This document shows, one piece after another, positions 47,487 to 56,564 of a DNA stretch of 64,000 nucleotides; positions within the stretch are counted from its first letter, which is position 1; each line of letters begins with the position of its first letter. The stretch covers positions 186,001 through 250,000 of the forward strand of contig NZ_CP087997.1 of the NCBI RefSeq assembly GCF_021044565.1, written 5' to 3'. The position numbers and the translations under genes were made by a program. A model generated the notes under the pieces. The model was not told the origin of the DNA. It saw only the letters and a list, made by a program, of their open reading frames with translations, and searched no databases. The stretch is from Subtercola endophyticus. GTDB taxonomy: Bacteria > Actinomycetota > Actinomycetes > Actinomycetales > Microbacteriaceae.

Positions 47487-48326
47487 TCAGCTGACCTCTC
47501 CGAAGCCGACCATGGTGCTGCTCGCTTCCCACAATTCGCGCGCAAGTTCGACAGAGCCGGCTTGCGGGTTGGTTTTGCGGGCGGGGCGCCCCTTTTCGAA
47601 GTAACTGCCGGGCTGCCATGCGGTGCCGGGGTCGGTGGTCGCCAGCCAGACGAGTTGGGCTGCACCCTTGGCGGGCGTGGTGATGAGGCGACGGATGATC
47701 GGGTTGCCGTAGACGAACCGCATGGCCCTGCTCGGTGTGTCGGAGGCGAAGTTGGTCGCGACGGTGCCGGGATGGAAGGCGGCGGCGGCGATGCCCTGGT
47801 CTCCGTACCGACGCTGCAGTTCGGCAGTGAAGAGGATGTTCGCGAGTTTCGCATCGCCGTAAGCCCTCGTTGGTGTTCGGCCGGCGGTGTTGTTGAGGTC
47901 GTCGATGACCAGTTTGCCGGTGATGCGGGCGGCGTCGCTGGAGGTCTGGATGAGGGTGGCTCTGCTGGAGGTCAGGCGAGGCAGCAGCAGGTTGGTGAGC
48001 AGAAACGGGGCGAGGTGGTTGATCTGAAAAGTCTTCTCGAACCCGTCGGCGGTGGGCGCCTTGTCTCCGAAGACGCCGCCGGCGTTGTTGGCGAGCACGT
48101 CGATGCGGGGATAGTGCGCGGCGAGATCTGTGGCGAGGGTGCGAACATCGTCGAGACAGGCGAAGTCGGCGATGAAGTAGTCGCTTCCGAGCTCGCGGGC
48201 GATGGCCTCTGTCTTTGCGGCAGACCTGCCCACGATGACGACGGTGTGGCCGTCGAGCGAGAGGCGGCGGGCGGCAGCGGCACCGATTCCGTCGCTGGAT
48301 CCGGTAATGACGATCGTTTTCGGCAT
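47487..48326 (-). CDS. Short-chain dehydrogenase/reductase
   Basis: A 279-residue SDR: TIVITGSSDGIGAAAARRL cofactor motif, NNAGGVFG, and active-site YGDAKLANILF (YxxxK) after TSSDAA. The HPGTVATNFASDT segment follows. The ATG at 48326 has GGAG upstream. The start lies 67 bases after the MmyB-type gene in the same direction, so the regulator and SDR are probably one transcript. Confidence 0.92.
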   Translation of the reverse strand: MPKTIVITGSSDGIGAAAARRLSLDGHTVVIVGRSAAKTEAIARELGSDYFIADFACLDDVRTLATDLAAHYPRIDVLANNAGGVFGDKAPTADGFEKTFQINHLAPFLLTNLLLPRLTSSRATLIQTSSDAARITGKLVIDDLNNTAGRTPTRAYGDAKLANILFTAELQRRYGDQGIAAAAFHPGTVATNFASDTPSRAMRFVYGNPIIRRLITTPAKGAAQLVWLATTDPGTAWQPGSYFEKGRPARKTNPQAGSVELARELWEASSTMVGFGEVS

Positions 48327-48393
48327 GGGTGTAGCTCCAAAGGGGTTCGGGGAGAGAGTTCGGGGGGGGTCTGGGAACGTCGAGACGCGGGCT

Positions 48394-49104
48394 TCAGCGA
48401 GGCTGAGTGACGCCTTTCCCTGCGGCGGTTCGCGCTGCGGCGTCGGGCCGGCGCAGCGCGGCGAGCAGCAGCAGCGCCTGCTGCGACGGCGTTCCCGGCT
48501 CGGCGGTGTAGATGCACAGGCGTTGGTGGTCGCCCGGAATCTCGAGGGCTTCGCAGTGCACGGTGATCTCGCCCATCTGCGGGTGCCGGTAGGTCTTCGA
48601 GCCGTTCGAAAGCGAACGTACATCGTGGCCGGCCCACCAGCGGGCGAATTCGGGACTCTGCTGCGCAAGGTCGTGAATCAGCTCGGGCAGCTGCGGGTCG
48701 TTCGGGTGCTGCCCGGCATCGTGACGGAGGGTCGCGACCGCCTCTTCAGCGACGGCCGCCCAGTCGCTGTGGATGGTGCGCGCTTCGGGGTCGAGAAAGA
48801 TGAACCGGGCGAGATTGCGGCCGTTGGCCGGGCGGGCGAGGTCGATGAGGTGCTGCCGCTCGGCGGGGTCGAGGCGCAGGGCTCGGGCGACGGCATCCAG
48901 CACCGAAAGCGACACGTTCGGCAGCCTGCCTTGCTCGAGGCGAGCGTAGTAGTCGACATTCACGCCGGCGAGCGAAGCGACCTCTTCGCGCCTCAGCCCG
49001 GCGACGCGGCGCATTCCACCGCCGATCAGCCCGACGTCAGCGGGCTGGAGCTTCGCGCGTCTTGTTCGGAGATAGTCGCGCAGAAGGTGGCGGGGATCGT
49101 CCAT
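48394..49104 (-). CDS. MmyB-type HTH regulator with internal deletion
   Basis: A 236-residue regulator. The HTH (about residues 5-75, RRVAGLRREEVASLAGVNVDYYARLEQGRLPN) is intact, but DPAERQHLIDLARPANGR runs directly into NLARFIFLDPEARTIHSDW. The about 55-60 residues that normally lie here (as in the paralogue at 41.4 kb, between HLLASPRPG and LRSTFLDPA) are missing, in frame. The rest of the ligand domain is present. It is divergent from the ECF41 sigma gene. It may still bind DNA but with altered sensing. Confidence 0.85.
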   Translation of the reverse strand: MDDPRHLLRDYLRTRRAKLQPADVGLIGGGMRRVAGLRREEVASLAGVNVDYYARLEQGRLPNVSLSVLDAVARALRLDPAERQHLIDLARPANGRNLARFIFLDPEARTIHSDWAAVAEEAVATLRHDAGQHPNDPQLPELIHDLAQQSPEFARWWAGHDVRSLSNGSKTYRHPQMGEITVHCEALEIPGDHQRLCIYTAEPGTPSQQALLLLAALRRPDAAARTAAGKGVTQPR

Positions 49105-49190: not shown

Positions 49191-49216
49191 GTCACAAACC
49201 GGCCGGCTACTCGGTC
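49191..49216 (+). promoter_or_regulatory. ECF41-type promoter before the sigma gene
   Basis: GTCACA (49191-49196), 17 bases, then GTC (49214-49216). This agrees with the published ECF41 target pattern TGTCACA-N16-CGTC apart from the outermost base of each box. The first 12 bases, GTCACAAACCGG, are identical to the site before the epimerase pair at 53445. The sigma start is 61 bases downstream, implying autoregulation. Confidence 0.75.
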
Positions 49217-49277
49217 TTACCTGACGAGAGCTCTGTTTGCAGGGCCGAAACGTACGCACAAGAGACAGGACGGCCTG

Positions 49278-50201
49278 ATGGTGGAGAACACAGCAGACAC
49301 AGGCGATGGCGTGGCGGGGCGGCCAGTATGGTCGACGATTTCGGAGGCGACCGACGTCTTCAGCGCCGCCCGGCCGCGGCTGTTCGGCATCGCGTACCGC
49401 ATGCTCGGCAGTGTCTCTGAGGCCGAAGACATCGTGCAGGAGTCGTGGCTGAGGTGGCAGGCCACCGATCGCAGCGTGGTGGAGAACCCGAACGCGTTCC
49501 TGGCGACGATCACCACCCGACTGGCGATGAACCTGGCCCAATCCGCCCGCGCCCGGCACGAGACCTACATCGGGCCTTGGCTCCCCGACCCCGTCGACAC
49601 CAGCGCGAACCCGGCGCTGGGAGCTGAGCGGGGCGAAGCGCTCGAGTACGCAGTGCTCATCTTGCTCGAGAAGCTCACACCGGCTGAGCGGGCCGCGTAC
49701 GTGCTACGAGAGGCGTTCGACTACCCCTACGAGCTCATCGCCGACGTCGTGCAGGCGACGGAGCCGGCCACCCGCAAGCTTGTGAGCCGGGCGCGTAAAC
49801 ATCTGGCCGATGAACGCCGCAGACCCGCGCCGGCGGCAGAGCACAAGCGGCTGCTCAGCGCATTCTTGACGGCGGCGCAGTCCGGTGACGTCGCCGTGCT
49901 CGAGAAGCTGTTCGCCGATGATGTGGTGAGCTACTCCGACGGCGGCGGTGTGAAGCTCGCGGCGCGCATCCCCATCATCGGCCGTTCGCGCGTAGCGAAG
50001 TTCGTTGCAGCGTTCTCGTCGCATTTCTGGACGGGCGTCGACCTGCGCTGGGTCGAGGCGAACGGGCGGCCCTCGGTGGAGCTCTCGCGTGACGGCGTGC
50101 CGTTCACCATCGTGACGGCGACCACCTCTGCCGACGGCATCGATCAACTGCTGTGGTTGATGAACCCCGCGAAGCTGCGCCCGATGACCAGCGCGTCATG
50201 A
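49278..50201 (+). CDS. ECF41 family RNA polymerase sigma factor (SigJ-like)
   Basis: A 307-residue sigma factor: region 2 (PRLFGIAYRMLGSVSEAEDIVQESWLRW, residues 34-60), region 4 (about 125-180), then a SnoaL-like C-terminal domain (about 190-300). The three ECF41 signatures are present: WLPDP (101-105) in the linker, DGGG (221-224) and NPAKL (296-300). In this family the fused domain adjusts activity instead of a separate anti-sigma factor, and targets are usually oxidoreductase/epimerase/decarboxylase genes nearby. The next gene overlaps by four bases. I chose the ATG at 49278, downstream of the promoter site. Confidence 0.95.
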   Translation: MVENTADTGDGVAGRPVWSTISEATDVFSAARPRLFGIAYRMLGSVSEAEDIVQESWLRWQATDRSVVENPNAFLATITTRLAMNLAQSARARHETYIGPWLPDPVDTSANPALGAERGEALEYAVLILLEKLTPAERAAYVLREAFDYPYELIADVVQATEPATRKLVSRARKHLADERRRPAPAAEHKRLLSAFLTAAQSGDVAVLEKLFADDVVSYSDGGGVKLAARIPIIGRSRVAKFVAAFSSHFWTGVDLRWVEANGRPSVELSRDGVPFTIVTATTSADGIDQLLWLMNPAKLRPMTSAS

Positions 50202-50599
50202 GCTACAGCGACGAATGGCTGGGCGGTCGATCGGCCGTCGACGCAGACGAGCACCGTCGAGGGGTGCATGCGCTGTGCGTGGCGGCCGAGAGTGGTCAGC
50301 CGGGCATCCTGAACCGAGTGCTCGACCCGTCGGCTCGTATGCTGACCGACGCTGCGGGCTCTGTTGCGATCGACAGGCAGACAATCGTCGGCGCGTGTTC
50401 CGTTTCGGCGACGATCTGTGAGGTGCTCGCCCGTCACCCGATGCAGATCAGCGAGCACGAAGTCAACGGACAGACGGGGCTCGTGCTGCGGCGCCACGGC
50501 CGAGTCATCGGCATCGCGAGTGTCGACGTGCAGGGTGGCCTCGTCACCGACCTGTGGATCGTGCTGAACCCTGACAAGCTGCGGCACTGGAATGAGTAG
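50198..50599 (+). CDS. Stand-alone SnoaL-like domain homologous to the ECF41 C-terminus
   Basis: A 133-residue protein that aligns with residues 189-300 of the preceding sigma factor: EHRRGVHALCVAAESGQ matches EHKRLLSAFLTAAQSGD, and VNGQTGLVLRRHGRVIGIAS through LNPDKL (124-128) matches ANGRPSVELSRDG through MNPAKL. The DGGG motif is replaced by DAAG. It has no sigma regions. The start overlaps the sigma stop (ATGA), so the two are made together. It is probably a separate sensor or modulator that acts on the sigma factor; this role is inferred. It overlaps the next gene by 8 bases. Confidence 0.8.
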   Translation: MSYSDEWLGGRSAVDADEHRRGVHALCVAAESGQPGILNRVLDPSARMLTDAAGSVAIDRQTIVGACSVSATICEVLARHPMQISEHEVNGQTGLVLRRHGRVIGIASVDVQGGLVTDLWIVLNPDKLRHWNE

Positions 50600-51845
50600 C
50601 GCTGAAAGCACCGGGGTCGCCGCCGCCCGCGGCGGCCTTCGGGTCAGGATGCTCGCCCGCGACACCGACGAGAAAGGCCGTGCATCGACCTCGCTCGAGC
50701 TGTTGTTCGACCTCACGTTCGTCGTCGCGATCGCCAGCATCACCGCGCAGCTCGCGCACGGGATCGTGAGCGGTCACGCCGCCGAGACGCTCGTGCCGTT
50801 TCTCGAGGTGTTCTTCGCGATCTGGTGGGCGTGGATGAACTTCACCTGGTTCGCCTCCTCGTTCGACACCGATGATGTGCCCTACCGTCTGCTGACGATG
50901 CTGCAGATGGCCGGGGTGCTCGTTCTCGCCGCGGGAGTGCCGGCCGCGTTCAACGACGCAAACTTCACCGGCGTCACCCTCGGCTACCTGATCATGCGCA
51001 TCGGACTGGTGGCGCAGTGGGTGCGGGCGGCCCGCGACGACGCGCAGAGCCGGCGCACGGCGAGCCGCTACGCGGTCGGAATCGTCATCGTGGAGGCGGG
51101 CTGGCTGCTGCGTCTCACGCTCGCCGACGGTGGAGTTCTGCCGACGGCATGGTTGTCGCCGGTCTTCCTGCTGCTCGTGGTCGCCGAGCTCTCGGTGCCG
51201 CTCTGGGCGGAGCGCACCGGCCACACGCGCTGGCACCCGCATCACATCGCAGAACGGTACGGGCTGTTCACGATCATCCTGCTCGGGGAGAGCGTGCTTG
51301 CCGCGTCGACCGGGCTGCAGGGCGCCCTGAACGGCGGCGGCGTGAGCGGCTCGCTGATCGTGGTGGCCGTCGCCGGGCTGATGCTGCTGTTCTCGTTCTG
51401 GTGGCTGTACTTTCTCGAACCGAGCGGTTCGGGTTTGGCCGCCCGGCCGAATCGCTCGTACCTGTGGGGGTACGGGCACTACGGCATTTTCGCTGCTCTC
51501 GCCGCGCTGGGCGCGGGCCTGGAGGTGGCGGTCTCTGCCGCAGAACACTCCGAGGTCTCGGTGACCATCGTGGCCTACGCAGTTGCGTTTCCTGCGGGTG
51601 CGTTTCTGGTGTTGTTGTGGGCTGTGCACGCGCCGATCGTGGCTCGCCCGGTCATTCGGCCCGCTGTCATTCTCGTGGCGGCAGCGGTGACCCTGGTGCT
51701 GCCGTTAGGCGCCGAGCTCGTCGGCCTGGTCGCCGTGGTGTGCTGCATTGCTTTCGTTTCGGCGTTCGTCGTAACGATCACCCTGGCGCTGGGGCGGTTG
51801 CGGGCAGCTGCCTCGCAGGCCGCCCCAGCATCACTCACACTGTGA
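50592..51845 (+). CDS. ltrA: Low temperature requirement protein A family membrane protein
   Basis: A 417-residue protein with about ten to twelve membrane segments, with the LtrA family opening TSLELLFDLTFVVAIASITAQLAHG, the FFAIWWAWMNFTWFASSFDTDD segment, and ERYGLFTIILLGESVLA in the middle. The molecular function of the family is unknown. It overlaps the SnoaL-like gene by 8 bases and is thus in the ECF41 operon. Its last 11 bases overlap the end of the opposite-strand epimerase gene. Confidence 0.9.
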   Translation: MSSAESTGVAAARGGLRVRMLARDTDEKGRASTSLELLFDLTFVVAIASITAQLAHGIVSGHAAETLVPFLEVFFAIWWAWMNFTWFASSFDTDDVPYRLLTMLQMAGVLVLAAGVPAAFNDANFTGVTLGYLIMRIGLVAQWVRAARDDAQSRRTASRYAVGIVIVEAGWLLRLTLADGGVLPTAWLSPVFLLLVVAELSVPLWAERTGHTRWHPHHIAERYGLFTIILLGESVLAASTGLQGALNGGGVSGSLIVVAVAGLMLLFSFWWLYFLEPSGSGLAARPNRSYLWGYGHYGIFAALAALGAGLEVAVSAAEHSEVSVTIVAYAVAFPAGAFLVLLWAVHAPIVARPVIRPAVILVAAAVTLVLPLGAELVGLVAVVCCIAFVSAFVVTITLALGRLRAAASQAAPASLTL

Positions 51846-52596
51846 CGGGCTGGTGGTGGAGCCAGTCGGCGTAGCGGGTTGAGAACAGCCTCGCCTCCGG
51901 TGCGGGCAGCAGCTCGGTCTCGGTGAGGGAGCTGCCGAAGTACCGGGCCAGCGGGTCGGTGATGATGTCGCGCGGATCACCGCGGTAGGCGAGGTCTTGT
52001 CGCACGAATTCCGAGAGCCGGTACTGGTCGGGGCCCGCGATCTCTGTCGTGCGATTCGTCGGCTCTGCGGTCGCTGCGTCGGCCAGCGCTGTGGCTACGT
52101 CGTCGGCGGCGATCGGGCGAACCTGTGCCTCTGACAGCAGAACACGCTTCTCGACGGTTGCCGCGTCGGCGATGCTGCGCACGAATTCGTAGAACTGCGT
52201 CGAGTGCACGATCGAGAACGAAGACCCCGAGTCCCTGATCAGCCTCTCCTGTTCGTTCTTGGCGAAGAAGTACCCGCGTTCGGTTGCTGCCAGCCGGTCG
52301 GTGCCGACCACCGAGAGGGCGACATGGTTCTTCACGCCGGCCGCGGCCCCGTAGGTGAGCAGGTTGAGGGTCGACGCGTAGAAGAACTCGAGCGCCCCGG
52401 CCTCGTCGAAGTACGACGAGTTCGACACGTCGACGATCACGTCGGCACCGTCGAGTACGTCGGCCAGCCCGTCTGCGGTGAACGAGTTCACGCCCGTGCG
52501 ACGGGATGCCGCGACAGCGGTCACACCGCGCTCGGTGAGTTTTTCGACCACACGTGAGCCGATGAGGCCGTGGCCGCCGATGACGACGATTCTCAT
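51835..52596 (-). CDS. NmrA-type NAD(P)-binding epimerase, paralogue 2
   Basis: A 253-residue atypical SDR with Rossmann motif RIVVIGGHGLIGSRVVEKL at the start, VIVDVSNSSYF and HVALSVVGTDRL in the middle, and HSTQFYEFVRSIADAA. It lacks a YxxxK active site, so it may sense or bind NAD(P)H or act on an unknown substrate. The start overlaps the stop of its upstream paralogue (ATGA). The pair lies under an ECF41-type promoter, matching the epimerases typically linked to ECF41. Confidence 0.88.
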   Translation of the reverse strand: MRIVVIGGHGLIGSRVVEKLTERGVTAVAASRRTGVNSFTADGLADVLDGADVIVDVSNSSYFDEAGALEFFYASTLNLLTYGAAAGVKNHVALSVVGTDRLAATERGYFFAKNEQERLIRDSGSSFSIVHSTQFYEFVRSIADAATVEKRVLLSEAQVRPIAADDVATALADAATAEPTNRTTEIAGPDQYRLSEFVRQDLAYRGDPRDIITDPLARYFGSSLTETELLPAPEARLFSTRYADWLHHQPVTV

Positions 52597-53369
52597 GAGG
52601 CGGGAGTCGCTTGCGTCGTTTGCGCTGCTTGCGTCTCGAGCCACTCGTCGAACGTCGTCGAGAAAATGGTCGCATCCGGGCCGGGCACCAGGGTGCGCTC
52701 GGCGAGAATCGCACCGAAGTACGGGGCGTCAGCGTCGGCCACGACCTCGCGAGGGTCCCCGCGGCGGGCGAGAGCGCCACGCACCAGGTCGTCGAGGCTG
52801 ATCTCGTCGGGGCCGGCGATGTCGAGGGTGCCGTTCAGCGGGGCACCGGCGGCGGTGCGAGCGACGGTGGTCGCGACATCCTCTGCGGCGATCGGGCGAA
52901 CCAGGGCGTGCGAGAGCCGCACGGTGTTGCCATCGGTGGCGGCTGCGGCGATGCTCTGCACGAACTCGTAGAACTGGGTGGCGTGCACGAGCGAGAATGG
53001 GATGCCCGAATTCTTGATGAGCGTCTCTTGAGCGACTTTGGCGCGCATGTAACCCGAGTCGGGCAGCCGGTCGGTGCCGACCACAGAGAGAGCGACGTGG
53101 TGGGTGACGCCGGCGAGCTTCTCGGCTTTGAGCACATTTGTGGTGGAGGTGGTGAAGAAGTTCATCACGTCGTCGTCGGCGAACGAGGGAGAGTTCGACA
53201 CATCGACGACGACCTGGGCGCCCTCGAGCACCTCGGCGAGGCCCTCGCCGGTGAGGGTGCTGACGCCGGAATTCGGTGACGCGGGGATGGCTTCGTGGCC
53301 GTGCTCGGTGAGCTTCGAGACGACCTTGGAGCCGATGAGGCCGGTTCCGCCGATGACAACGATTTTCAT
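52593..53369 (-). CDS. NmrA-type NAD(P)-binding epimerase, paralogue 1
   Basis: A 258-residue paralogue of the next gene: KIVVIGGTGLIGSKVVSKL, VVVDVSNSPSF, HVALSVVGTDRLPD, HATQFYEFVQSIAAAAT. The same segments in the same order show a tandem duplication. It is first in a two-gene operon with an ECF41-type promoter 51 bases upstream, so it is probably a direct target of the sigma factor encoded 4 kb away. The substrate is unknown. Confidence 0.88.
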   Translation of the reverse strand: MKIVVIGGTGLIGSKVVSKLTEHGHEAIPASPNSGVSTLTGEGLAEVLEGAQVVVDVSNSPSFADDDVMNFFTTSTTNVLKAEKLAGVTHHVALSVVGTDRLPDSGYMRAKVAQETLIKNSGIPFSLVHATQFYEFVQSIAAAATDGNTVRLSHALVRPIAAEDVATTVARTAAGAPLNGTLDIAGPDEISLDDLVRGALARRGDPREVVADADAPYFGAILAERTLVPGPDATIFSTTFDEWLETQAAQTTQATPAS

Positions 53370-53419
53370 GGTGTGCCTTCCGTTTCGCCGCCGACTGATG
53401 CCGTGCGGTCACAAGCTAG

Positions 53420-53445
53420 GACAGAACTGCTGCCCGGTTTGTGAC
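53420..53445 (-). promoter_or_regulatory. ECF41-type promoter before the epimerase pair
   Basis: On the minus strand, GTCACA (53445-53440), 17 bases, then GTC (53422-53420). The 12 bases GTCACAAACCGG are identical to the site before the sigma gene. The epimerase start is 51 bases downstream. Confidence 0.75.
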
Positions 53446-53501
53446 GCATTCGCGCAAAGTGTTCTCGGTTCGCTCGTGAATGCGCCGATCATCCCGTCGC
53501 G

Positions 53502-53527
53502 GTCACAGGATGCCGGGCTGCACGGTC
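53502..53527 (+). promoter_or_regulatory. ECF41-type promoter, leaderless context
   Basis: GTCACA (53502-53507), 17 bases, then GTC (53525-53527). The same spacing as the other two sites, with a different spacer sequence. The GTG (53535) and ATG (53538) starts of the next gene are only 8-11 bases after the -10 box, so the transcript would have almost no leader. Confidence 0.65.
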
Positions 53528-53537
53528 TTTCTTGGTG

Positions 53538-54089
53538 ATGAACATTAATTCGCTGCTCCCTGATGCCGGCTACCGCATCCACGCAGAGACGACCGTTCGC
53601 GCCCGCCCGCAACAGGTGTGGAACGAGTTGCTCGCCCTGACGATGCGTGATCTGCCATGCTCGTTCGCGTTGACGCTGCTGCGGCATGCCCCGGCGGTGC
53701 TCACCCGTCGCGAGAGGCTTCCCTCACGCGACGAGACCTTCCTCGCGGCCACGCCGATTCCGGTCGTCTTCACTGACGCCCCGCACCTCATCGTCTCCGC
53801 GGGCGTAAGTCAGCCCTGGAGACTTTTCGGCGGCGAGAGACCACCGGTCATCTCTGGCGACGAGTTCGCCGGCTGGCACGAGCCGGGCTGGGTGAAGGTG
53901 GCCATGCAATTTCGTATCGAGCCGCAGGGGCCGGATTCCCGGCTCATGACCGAAACGCGCATCAGCGCTACGGATGATCGTTCCGCGCGCTTGTTCGCAC
54001 CCTACTGGTACACGATTCGTGCCGGGAGCGTCATGATTCGGCGTGAAGCAATCCACACCGTCGCGACGCGGGCGGGAGGGTGCTCGTGA
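53538..54089 (+). CDS. SRPBCC-like hypothetical protein
   Basis: A 183-residue soluble protein opening YRIHAETTVRARPQQVWNELL, a pattern of START/SRPBCC (polyketide-cyclase-like) proteins, with a later KVAMQFRIEPQGPDSRLMTETRISATD strand pair. The family call is by eye. It starts a few bases after an ECF41-type promoter and is divergent from the epimerase pair. Probable member of the ECF41 regulon; substrate unknown. Confidence 0.7.
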   Translation: MNINSLLPDAGYRIHAETTVRARPQQVWNELLALTMRDLPCSFALTLLRHAPAVLTRRERLPSRDETFLAATPIPVVFTDAPHLIVSAGVSQPWRLFGGERPPVISGDEFAGWHEPGWVKVAMQFRIEPQGPDSRLMTETRISATDDRSARLFAPYWYTIRAGSVMIRREAIHTVATRAGGCS

Positions 54090-54194: not shown

Positions 54195-54727
54195 TTATCT
54201 CGAACGCTCGGCAGGTTGCACAGCGCCAATTGTCTCTTCGGCGTCTTTGACCAACAGGTACATTGCCGCATCATTTGCCATGGGCATAGATTCGAAGCCG
54301 GATTTTCGATAGAGGTTGGCCGCAGATTCGTTCAGCGCGTCGACAATGATCGCACGGATTCCTACGGAGACAGCTGCTTCAACACACTTGAGCAAGGCAT
54401 CCTGAGGCAGGGACGCGCCCAACTCGAAACCATTGAATCGCTCGTCGACTGCGAGTCGGCCAATGAGCACGACCGGAATCGGCAATGGCATGTTTCGACG
54501 CGGCTTGCCTGGCGCGACGTCGAGCGAGAGCGAGTTGGCCGATACGGAGTAAAGCCGGCGATCACCCCGCTGTCGCGCTCGACAGTCACGAATGTTCGGC
54601 TTGCGCCGGTGGCTTCGTGCTTGATGGCGCGACCGGAGAGCCAGAAGTCGAGCGACGTATCGCCGCAATCGAAGCCCGCGACAGGGTCGGTTCCGTCGAG
54701 CCCTCGCAGCCTCGAGAACGTACTCAA
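54195..54727 (-). pseudogene. GNAT toxin of a DUF1778 TA pair, frameshifted
   Basis: The first part (from 54727) reads as a normal TacT/AtaT-type GNAT toxin: GLDGTDPVAGFDCGDTSLDFWLSGRA, FVTVERDSGVIAGF. Directly after GVIAGF the frame is lost; one frame over it continues LYSVSANSLSLDVAPGK, IPVVLIGRLAVDERF, AIIVDALNESAANLYRKSGFE to the end near 54195. A single missing base near 54560 explains this. The start overlaps the antitoxin stop (ATGA). Unless rescued by frameshifting, no active acetyltransferase is made. Confidence 0.85.
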
Positions 54728-54999
54728 TCGGAGAAGACGCTCGGGCGCGAGAGAAGATCAGCGAGCCCGCTGACAGGCTTCGCGGGCTGGTCGAGGATCT
54801 TGTTGAATGCATCCCAGGAGCGCTTGGCGAGGTTCGGTTCACGATCGACTCGAATGACTTCGCTCGCCTCCCTGACGAGTACCGGCACCGAGAAGTCGGT
54901 AACTGACCGCCCAGAGAGCGCAGCGGCCTGCTCGATCGCTGCCTTCTGTTCTGGCGTGAGGAGGAGTTCGAGTCTATCCGACTTGGTTGCGATGCTCAT
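54724..54999 (-). CDS. DUF1778 antitoxin
   Basis: A 91-residue protein with the ribbon-helix-helix-type start SDRLELLLTPEQKAAIEQAAALSGRSVTDF, the hallmark of TacA/AtaR-like DUF1778 antitoxins, and a C-terminal arm that would wrap the GNAT toxin. I chose the ATG at 54999. The reading frame is intact although its toxin is frameshifted, so it may now act only as a repressor. TGTACA repeats lie just upstream. Confidence 0.88.
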   Translation of the reverse strand: MSIATKSDRLELLLTPEQKAAIEQAAALSGRSVTDFSVPVLVREASEVIRVDREPNLAKRSWDAFNKILDQPAKPVSGLADLLSRPSVFSD

Positions 55000-55007
55000 G
55001 ACTCGGT

Positions 55008-55028
55008 TGTACAGCAAATCTCTGTACA
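55008..55028 (-). promoter_or_regulatory. TGTACA repeats before the antitoxin gene
   Basis: TGTACA occurs at 55008-55013 and 55023-55028, 15 bases apart centre to centre, with a related GTAC at 55033. They lie directly before the DUF1778 antitoxin start and suit an RHH autorepressor. Confidence 0.55.
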
Positions 55029-55125
55029 TTGCGTACGGTCGAAGCGGGAGTTCAGCCCAGACGACCGACACAAAATCGTCGGTGTGTTGCACTTTAGCTC
55101 TGGTCGGCGCATAACTGGAGTTGAT

Positions 55126-55979: not shown

Positions 55980-56223
55980 GAAGACGGCGATATCAGTTCC
56001 CAACGGTGACTTCGAGCGTTTCGAGCGTGTGGCCGACAAGCATGGTATGAACCGGTCGGAGTTCTACCGACTTGCTGCGCAACGGCTCGCCGACGAGTTG
56101 GAGGGCGCGTCGGAACTGACTGCGATTGCGAATGCGGTCCTGGCTCGTACGGGACAACCATCGGGTGACGGCTTGTTCCTGCGTGAGTCGGAGCGTGTGA
56201 TGCGTGATGGAACCGAATGGTGA
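55978..56223 (+). CDS. MazE-like ribbon-helix-helix antitoxin
   Basis: An 81-residue protein with RHH-type N-terminus MKTAISVPNGDFERFERVADKHG then MNRSEFYRLAAQRLADEL, typical of antitoxins that pair with PemK/MazF toxins in actinobacteria. The acidic C-terminal part would bind the toxin. It overlaps the toxin gene by 7 bases and lies between the two tRNA-Lys repeats. Confidence 0.88.
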   Translation: MKTAISVPNGDFERFERVADKHGMNRSEFYRLAAQRLADELEGASELTAIANAVLARTGQPSGDGLFLRESERVMRDGTEW

Positions 56224-56564
56224 CGGCGCGCGGCGATGTCGTCTGGGTCGACTTCGGCACGCCGAGGGGGTCGGAACCGGCGAAAGTTCGGCCGGCGGTC
56301 GTAATTCAGGAAGACTGGCTCTTGGCAACGAGCATCGCCACGGTGCAGGTCGTTCCACTGACCTCGAACACCGGACTTGAGGCGTTTCCCGGCAACGTTC
56401 TGCTTCCTGCAGAGGCGTCGGGGCTCGAGAAGGACTCCGTCGCCGTCGTCTCCCAGGTCGGGCCAGTCAGCCGCGAGTTCCTCGATCCCTATCCGGCGGG
56501 CCACGTTCCCTCGTATTTACTCTCCGAGATCAGTTCAGGAATTCGACTCGTTCTTGGACTGTAG
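56217..56564 (+). CDS. MazF/PemK family mRNA interferase toxin
   Basis: A 115-residue toxin with the family opening RGDVVWVDFGTPRGSEPAKVRPAVVIQ, the TVQVVPLTSN strand and SQVGPVSREFL. These are the RNA-binding and catalytic surfaces of MazF endoribonucleases. The frame appears complete (the usual length is 105-120), so the pair may be active. Confidence 0.9.
   Translation: MVTARGDVVWVDFGTPRGSEPAKVRPAVVIQEDWLLATSIATVQVVPLTSNTGLEAFPGNVLLPAEASGLEKDSVAVVSQVGPVSREFLDPYPAGHVPSYLLSEISSGIRLVLGL

Follow-up and report, generated by a model that had tools for sequence, protein, structure and literature searches.

A predicted ECF41 sigma factor regulon in Subtercola endophyticus with a clade-wide promoter signature and a stand-alone protein related to the ECF41 C-terminal domain

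Gene content of the locus

The window analysed here is a 64-kb stretch of the Subtercola endophyticus genome. It contains the gene for an ECF41 sigma factor, followed by genes for a stand-alone SnoaL-like protein and an LtrA membrane protein, and then by a pair of NmrA-type genes on the opposite strand and one further gene. Three copies of a promoter motif are found at this locus, and an initial annotation had read them as marking a small autoregulated system. We have compared the locus with related loci in other genomes; the whole account of the regulon is drawn from sequence, so that promoter activity and binding of the SnoaL protein to the sigma factor are predictions. The features of the locus, in order, are:

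49191..49216, + strand: promoter 1 (putative autoregulation), GTCACA-N16-GGTC followed by TTACCTGACGA; predicted start, from the clade consensus, at about 49223, giving a leader of 55 nt
49278..50201, + strand: ECF41 sigma factor, 307 aa, with sigma2, sigma4, a WLPDP linker and a C-terminal SnoaL/NTF2-like extension containing DGGGV and NPAKL
50198..50599, + strand: stand-alone NTF2-like protein of 133 aa whose homology is confined to the ECF41 C-terminal extension, containing NPDKL and KLxxW
50592..51845, + strand: LtrA membrane protein (PF06772, 4.2e-92), third gene of the sigma operon, with an 8-nt overlap
51835..52596, - strand: NmrA-type NAD(P)-binding protein (PF13460), second of the pair, with an ATGA overlap
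52593..53369, - strand: NmrA-type NAD(P)-binding protein (PF13460, PF05368), first of the pair
53420..53445, - strand: promoter 2, GTCACA-N16-TGTC followed by CTAGCTTGTGA; predicted start at about 53413, leader 44 nt
53502..53527, + strand: promoter 3, the weakest site (matrix score 27.6), GTCACA-N16-GGTC followed by TTTCTTGGTGA; predicted start at about 53534
53538..54089, + strand: 183-aa protein that resembles SRPBCC proteins on visual inspection only and is presumed to be transcribed from promoter 3

The sigma2 and sigma4 domains of the sigma factor are recognised as PF04542 and PF08281, and its C-terminal extension weakly as PF12680 (20.6 bits, cut-off 27). The protein scores 324.1 bits against TIGR02957 (cut-off 323.25), matching up to position 279 of 281, and 266.7 against PRK09636, slightly below the threshold of 271. 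The linker, WLPDP here, is WLPEP in 43 of 49 clade sigmas, and the NmrA pair (51835-53369) provides the COE-type neighbours. The ECF41 C-terminal domain characteristically carries a DGGGK motif. In the window sigma this reads DGGGV, and NPAKL stands in place of NPDKL, which is described as an ECF41 motif (PMC7730460); much of the clade is altered likewise. The closest solved relative by sequence is SigJ (5xe7, 8.7e-41). On its sequence, the window sigma belongs to an ECF41 clade that occurs mainly in Actinobacteria, and the genome encodes a second, distant ECF41 (locus L079).

The GC content of the region is 0.664, nearly equal to the 0.663 of the window. A foreign base composition was therefore rejected, and GC gives no hint of a recent import, even though none of the 10 same-genus genomes listed in the family search has a clade sigma.

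Related loci and their grouping

Related loci were identified using the window sigma as query. This gave 50 of 398 family genomes at E <=1e-60 and, in a second query, 104 of 396 order genomes at E <=1e-40, which together form the first locus set. Loci were grouped by their phmmer score to the window sigma into A (the clade, >=335 bits), B (240-335 bits) and N (non-clade ECF41, below this), using cut-offs that were chosen after the scores were known. The second set consists of the best 80 loci, 34 from Micrococcales and 46 from other orders. It overlaps the first set in some genomes (for example L261 and G388), and so only the other orders constitute a fresh sample. One locus of the second set (L291) has no complete sigma frame and was left out of the sigma tree. 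Gene starts in related loci were assigned heuristically.

Three predicted promoter sites in the window

The pattern GTCACA-N17-GTC matches the window exactly three times with equal spacing, at 49191-49216 (+), 53420-53445 (-) and 53502-53527 (+), as initially annotated. It is also correct that two of the sites, those at 49191 and 53420, have the sequence GTCACAAACCGG in common, and that the sole difference from the published TGTCACA-n16-CGTC, at the same spacing, lies in the first base of each box. The window sites thus match the published consensus in core and spacing and depart from its exact form; the site at 53420 has neither the T (-35) nor the C (-10) at the two outermost positions. At promoter 3 the predicted start (about 53534) lies so close to the gene start (53538) that the predicted message would be leaderless or almost so.

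The bare count of three is weak evidence, because shuffled windows are expected to contain 0.85 matches and 5 of 100 shuffles contained at least three. A scan of the genome, proposed in the initial annotation as a check on rarity, found 31 matches (17 + 14) to the bare pattern against 7 to its reverse. The pattern is therefore not rare, and a sharper test was needed. Of the 31 matches, 30 were examined as loci, and 29 of these fall within open frames of at least 80 aa, which is uninformative because the three window sites also sit in such frames. We note that five loci in the same genome (L006, L009, L010, L028 and L029) have similar GTCACAC...GTCGTC matches inside frames of about 550 aa, so that several of the 31 hits seem to come from one coding segment repeated among paralogs.

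The three sites are nevertheless distinct. They lie within 4.3 kb, a span in which the density of the remaining 28 matches over 4.32 Mb would predict about 0.03. A matrix of 38 columns, built from 127 sites of other genomes with the window left out, gave scores of 35.8, 35.5 and 27.6, while the rest of the window scored at most 8 and the reversed window peaked at 5.1. The training sites had been preselected for GTCACA-N16-[GT]GTC, so only the remaining columns count as independent evidence, and the base before GTC, being restricted to G or T, is not independent either. In the columns beyond the nine fixed bases the three sites score 17.7, 17.5 and 9.6, and the next best of the 30 genomic matches scores 1.2. 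An extended 37-base pattern, allowing up to 3 mismatches, found these three sites alone in 4.32 Mb (control 0).

A clade-wide promoter signature

Counts of GTCACA-Nk-GTC in the first locus set are shown below together with those in the best 80 loci.

A, 42 loci (window excluded): 129 sites at k=17, against a mean of 5.4 at 22 other spacings
B, 27 loci: 12 against 1.0
N, 30 loci: 27 against 3.2
Best 80, 34 Micrococcales loci: 104 against 3.9
Best 80, 46 loci of other orders: 76 against 5.2

The next-largest spacing was k=12, with 29 matches in the 42-locus A set and 32 in the other orders. It was rejected as a separate spacing, since 23 of the 29 and 30 of the 32 coincide with k=17 sites; these matches represent an extra GTC a few bases upstream within the extended -10 region. 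The number of sites per locus ranges from 0 to 8 in A, mostly 1-4, and from 0 to 2 in N. In Micrococcales a clade locus has about 3 promoters; in other orders the figure is 1.7.

The base preceding the -10 GTC in A is G in 100 sites, T in 27, and A and C in one each, against a background frequency of C of 0.47. In B it is G in 11 and A in one, and in N it is T in 17, C in 9 and G in one. Among the best 80 loci, the counts are G84 T19 A1 in Micrococcales and G44 T31 A1 in the rest, with no C in any of the 180 sites. The -10 box of the clade is therefore GGTC or TGTC and hardly ever the published CGTC, which is a clade-wide signature, and the difference in outermost base seen in the window is reproducible. 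Because T also precedes GTC in N, G is the cleaner mark of the clade. The first base of the -35 box is T in 26 of 27 N sites and mixed in A (C51 T54 G20 A4). It is T in 63 of 76 sites from other orders in the best 80 loci; other orders thus mostly keep the T, and its relaxation is mainly a Micrococcales trait.

Further differences lie outside the boxes. The bases 5′ of the -10 box are preferentially CC in A and B and GG in N, and the conserved G at the start site is shifted downstream by one base in A and B relative to N, the extended motif having T before, and GG at, the predicted start. Positions 61 and 88 of the sigma factor separate A and B from N, and may be linked to the change in promoter code.

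A search of 31 clade genomes for the exact extended pattern gave 66 matches, spread over 23 genomes, and the reversed control gave 1. A manual count placed 57 of the 66 near a clade sigma and 9 on another contig or more than 20 kb away, with one of these 9 adjoining a B sigma. Four exact sites distant from the listed clade sigmas (G128:C1:1902029, G332:C2:426756, G272:C1:1982809 and G035:C2:844876) suggest distal targets in some relatives.

These controls bear on whether the window sites arose by chance or are read by another sigma factor. The abundance of the bare pattern, both genome-wide and in shuffles, would favour chance, and the second ECF41 could be another reader. The extended-motif and spacing controls largely exclude a chance origin, and no exact k=17 site is listed in the 14-kb stretch surrounding L079; we regard either version of this explanation as very improbable.

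As a separate observation, six loci (L076, L127, L128, L131, L137 and L139) contain two clade sigma genes close together, usually in divergent orientation, and motif sites lie between or next to the two.

Predicted targets of the promoters

The 43 A-type loci of the first set (window included) contain 116 sites, which come from 32 loci. NmrA genes follow 40 of these sites, in 27 loci, and sigma or sigma/SnoaL frames follow 21, in 21 loci. Three target clusters, with 10, 9 and 5 sites, are alpha/beta hydrolases; a pyridine-nucleotide oxidoreductase accounts for 8 sites, and an MFS transporter and a GNAT protein for 2 each. The rest occur singly, and 11 sites have no called target. These identities were obtained from one member per cluster. 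The arrangement in which sites precede both sigma and NmrA genes is therefore conserved across the clade, and the local autoregulated ECF41 regulon proposed in the initial annotation is the best reading, supported by this comparison of sequences.

The two other proposed members fared less evenly. LtrA homologs occur in 9 of the best 80 loci, and in 6 of these a k=17 site lies close to where the gene begins; the order promoter-sigma-LtrA in L316 (Arthrobacter oryzae) is much like that in the window. In the first set LtrA is hardly present as a partner: among the 43 A loci it is found in the window and weakly in L138, and none of the 27 B or 30 N loci has it. The link to the SRPBCC-like gene consists of the site at 53502 in one genome. 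Its 183-aa product has no match in Pfam (E up to 10), NCBIfam or PDB, which leaves it without a family name, and homologs are absent from the other 30 of the 31 clade genomes searched. Two distant homologs occur in the other 298 of the 299 family genomes searched, and the gene looks like a private addition.

The stand-alone SnoaL protein

The start of the SnoaL gene overlaps the sigma stop (ATGA). The protein, described initially as a SnoaL-like modulator, is by sequence homology a separately encoded protein related to the ECF41 C-terminal regulatory domain. Its library matches at 1e-3 are to sigma-factor models only, over their C-terminal part, and Pfam gives nothing credible. The structure predicted by AlphaFold2 from 40 sequences is an NTF2 fold with a pLDDT of 90.8; a single-sequence model was discarded (pLDDT 37.8). 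Foldseek ranked SigJ first, and the top structural matches are the sigma factors SigJ and SigG1. A P-x-K-L-xx-W stretch is near-invariant across 40 aligned proteins.

Of 43 clade loci, 23 have a stand-alone SnoaL gene directly downstream of the sigma gene; none of 26 B or 29 N loci does, the remaining B and N loci (27 and 30 in all) having no called sigma frame. One of the 43 (L139) was counted as having its SnoaL gene elsewhere, though its second clade sigma has an adjacent one. In 20 of 41 cases the heuristically assigned SnoaL start gives an overlap of 4, 11 or 14 nt with the sigma gene.

In published ECF41 systems the C-terminal domain restrains the sigma factor (PMC3426412, PMC8999054), is partly needed for activity (PMC3426412) and contacts the linker (PMC8999054), and it is on this basis that we infer binding of the free domain in trans. 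We propose that the window sigma transcribes its own operon, consisting of sigma, SnoaL and LtrA, together with the divergent NmrA pair and one further gene, and that three copies of the clade-specific promoter NGTCACA-N16-KGTC, with its conserved start-site sequence, would drive this regulon. The sigma factor has the usual built-in SnoaL/NTF2 domain. The stand-alone SnoaL, presumably made at the sigma stop codon, may modulate the sigma, and we consider it probable that it is an additional, trans-acting regulatory subunit, descended from the C-terminal domain of another ECF41 sigma that lost the parts binding DNA and polymerase and retained the P-x-K-L contact motif. Its contact on the sigma factor would probably be the WLPEP-type linker or the built-in domain, and through this contact it would adjust sigma activity according to a small ligand.

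Several observations weigh against this proposal. No stand-alone SnoaL is present in 13 of 43 clade loci (4 have a pseudo-sigma instead), and among the best 80 loci none was seen in 33 of the 46 outside Micrococcales, so the sigma factor can manage without it. A site lies within 400 bp upstream of only 6 of 23 non-adjacent SnoaL genes, and exact NPDKL occurs in just 6 of 37 stand-alone proteins. Loci with SnoaL have 2.95 promoters and those without have 1.46, with a median p of 0.22 after correction for relatedness. Finally, the sequence evidence consists of conserved promoter motifs, clade membership, homology, predicted fold and gene order; transcription by this sigma, SnoaL-sigma binding in trans, the ligand and the sign of regulation are inferred.

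Two related ideas were rejected. A clean division of labour, in which NPDKL is lost in cis and kept in trans, does not fit the variation of the middle residue in cis (NPAKL 9, NPEKL 7, NPHKL 6, NPDKL 5 and others in 49 clade sigma domains) or the 6 of 37 exact matches in trans. The idea that SnoaL presence drives promoter number is suggestive, and non-significant with the correction for relatedness.

An unlikely alternative, though one of some weight, is that the promoters and regulon are real and that SnoaL makes no contact with the sigma factor, being instead an NTF2-type enzyme (isomerase, hydrolase or cyclase) that acts together with NmrA and the other target enzymes. Many small enzymes have the NTF2 fold, the structural scores of ketosteroid isomerases and other NTF2 proteins come close to those of the sigma factors, and other clade targets resemble enzymes (alpha/beta hydrolases, FAD and pyridine-nucleotide oxidoreductases, with one member per cluster scanned). 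Such an enzyme would sit poorly with the restriction of library matches to sigma-factor models, with the empty Pfam result and with the near-invariant P-x-K-L-xx-W.

Origin of the stand-alone domain

The SnoaL protein has 25% identity to the domain of the neighbouring sigma (E 5e-5) and 35% to the genome's second ECF41 (9e-17). A duplication of the adjacent sigma's domain was therefore rejected, in agreement with the tree. In four of the 13 loci that lack SnoaL (L072, L119, L122 and L123), the next gene encodes a full-length second sigma. In the three of these that were scanned (excluding L072), sigma2 is not recognised by Pfam and sigma4 is barely above the cut-off.

In a domain tree, the stand-alone proteins and the C-terminal domains of these pseudo-sigmas form one group (support 93/90), nested in another lineage of full-length ECF41 domains apart from A and B (99/92); this evidence is moderate because the tree has 69 rows and 131 columns and includes 17 of the 37 stand-alone proteins. 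In a separate tree with all 37, they part from the sigmas included in it with an SH-aLRT support of 99. The tryptophan of KLxxW is present in the stand-alone/pseudo-sigma group and the related lineage; every A and B domain examined lacks it. Mapped on the sigma tree, the SnoaL gene switches between present and absent at least 8 times.

We tentatively suggest, with rather less confidence than we place in the trans subunit itself, that a second ECF41 sigma was reduced via degenerate full-length forms to its regulatory domain, which now serves as a trans sensor subunit of a sigma from a different subfamily. If this is true, a sigma factor has been converted into a sigma regulator, whose partner has its own GGTC/TGTC -10 code.

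The degenerate tandem sigmas in four loci and the repeated changes in SnoaL presence could also mean that the gene is a decaying, functionless remnant of a tandem second sigma. We consider this improbable, given the intact frame, the residues conserved across 40 aligned proteins, the confident fold, the third-position GC of 0.80 in the window gene, and the repeated tight coupling to the sigma gene.

A weak second sigma match (77-85 bits) also lies beside the clade sigma in L263, L271, L289 and L295, possibly representing more degenerate tandem sigmas.

Comparison with known systems

The window system resembles the ECF41 sigmas of Bacillus licheniformis and Rhodobacter sphaeroides, whose promoter is TGTCACA-n16-CGTC, in having sigma2-sigma4 with a fused C-terminal domain and a WLPEP-type linker, epimerase/oxidoreductase neighbours (NmrA being classed there as epimerase), the same promoter spacing, and promoters before sigma and COE genes alike (PMC3426412). 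Those sigmas generally have one target gene or operon each, whereas the window has three sites, and its clade differs further in the GGTC/TGTC -10 box and the free-standing C-terminal-domain protein. The covered part of that study found no partner protein and argued against involvement of a second protein (PMC3426412).

SigJ of Mycobacterium tuberculosis, the closest solved relative of the window sigma and the top Foldseek match of the stand-alone protein, has the domain fused, with no separate copy mentioned in the material covered; the window has a free-standing domain as well. The ECF56 pair SigG1-RsfG of Streptomyces tsukubaensis is similar in combining a sigma with fused SnoaL_2 and a co-transcribed partner gene, whose product RsfG binds SigG1 (PMC7730460). 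RsfG is described as having no conserved Pfam domain, unlike the window partner, which is itself a sigma-type SnoaL domain (PMC7730460).

The covered portions of five papers (PMC3426412, PMC8999054, PMC7730460, PMC8103513 and PMC9205884) describe neither a stand-alone SnoaL partner of an ECF41 sigma nor a GGTC subclass; the 2021 reclassification and the SigJ structure paper lie outside this coverage and may contain a prior mention. The sensor of ECF41 is fused to the sigma factor, and a clade with a separate, coupled relative would offer a version that can be added, removed or titrated. The shift from CGTC to GGTC/TGTC is a well-sampled change of promoter specificity inside one sigma family, and the extended motif allows such regulons to be read off sequence.

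Neighbouring genes

Divergent from the sigma operon are a short-chain dehydrogenase and an MLTR-type XRE regulator (47487-49104, -), before which there is no further matrix site. On the other side of the locus, at 54724-55092 (-) and 54195-54842 (-), a TacA1-type antitoxin (PF08681, 2e-16) adjoins frames that resemble pieces of a GNAT protein by eye, and neither piece matches Pfam at 1e-3. A PemK/MazF-like toxin gene (PF02452, 4.1e-20) lies at 56217-56564 (+), with a small unassigned open reading frame immediately before it.

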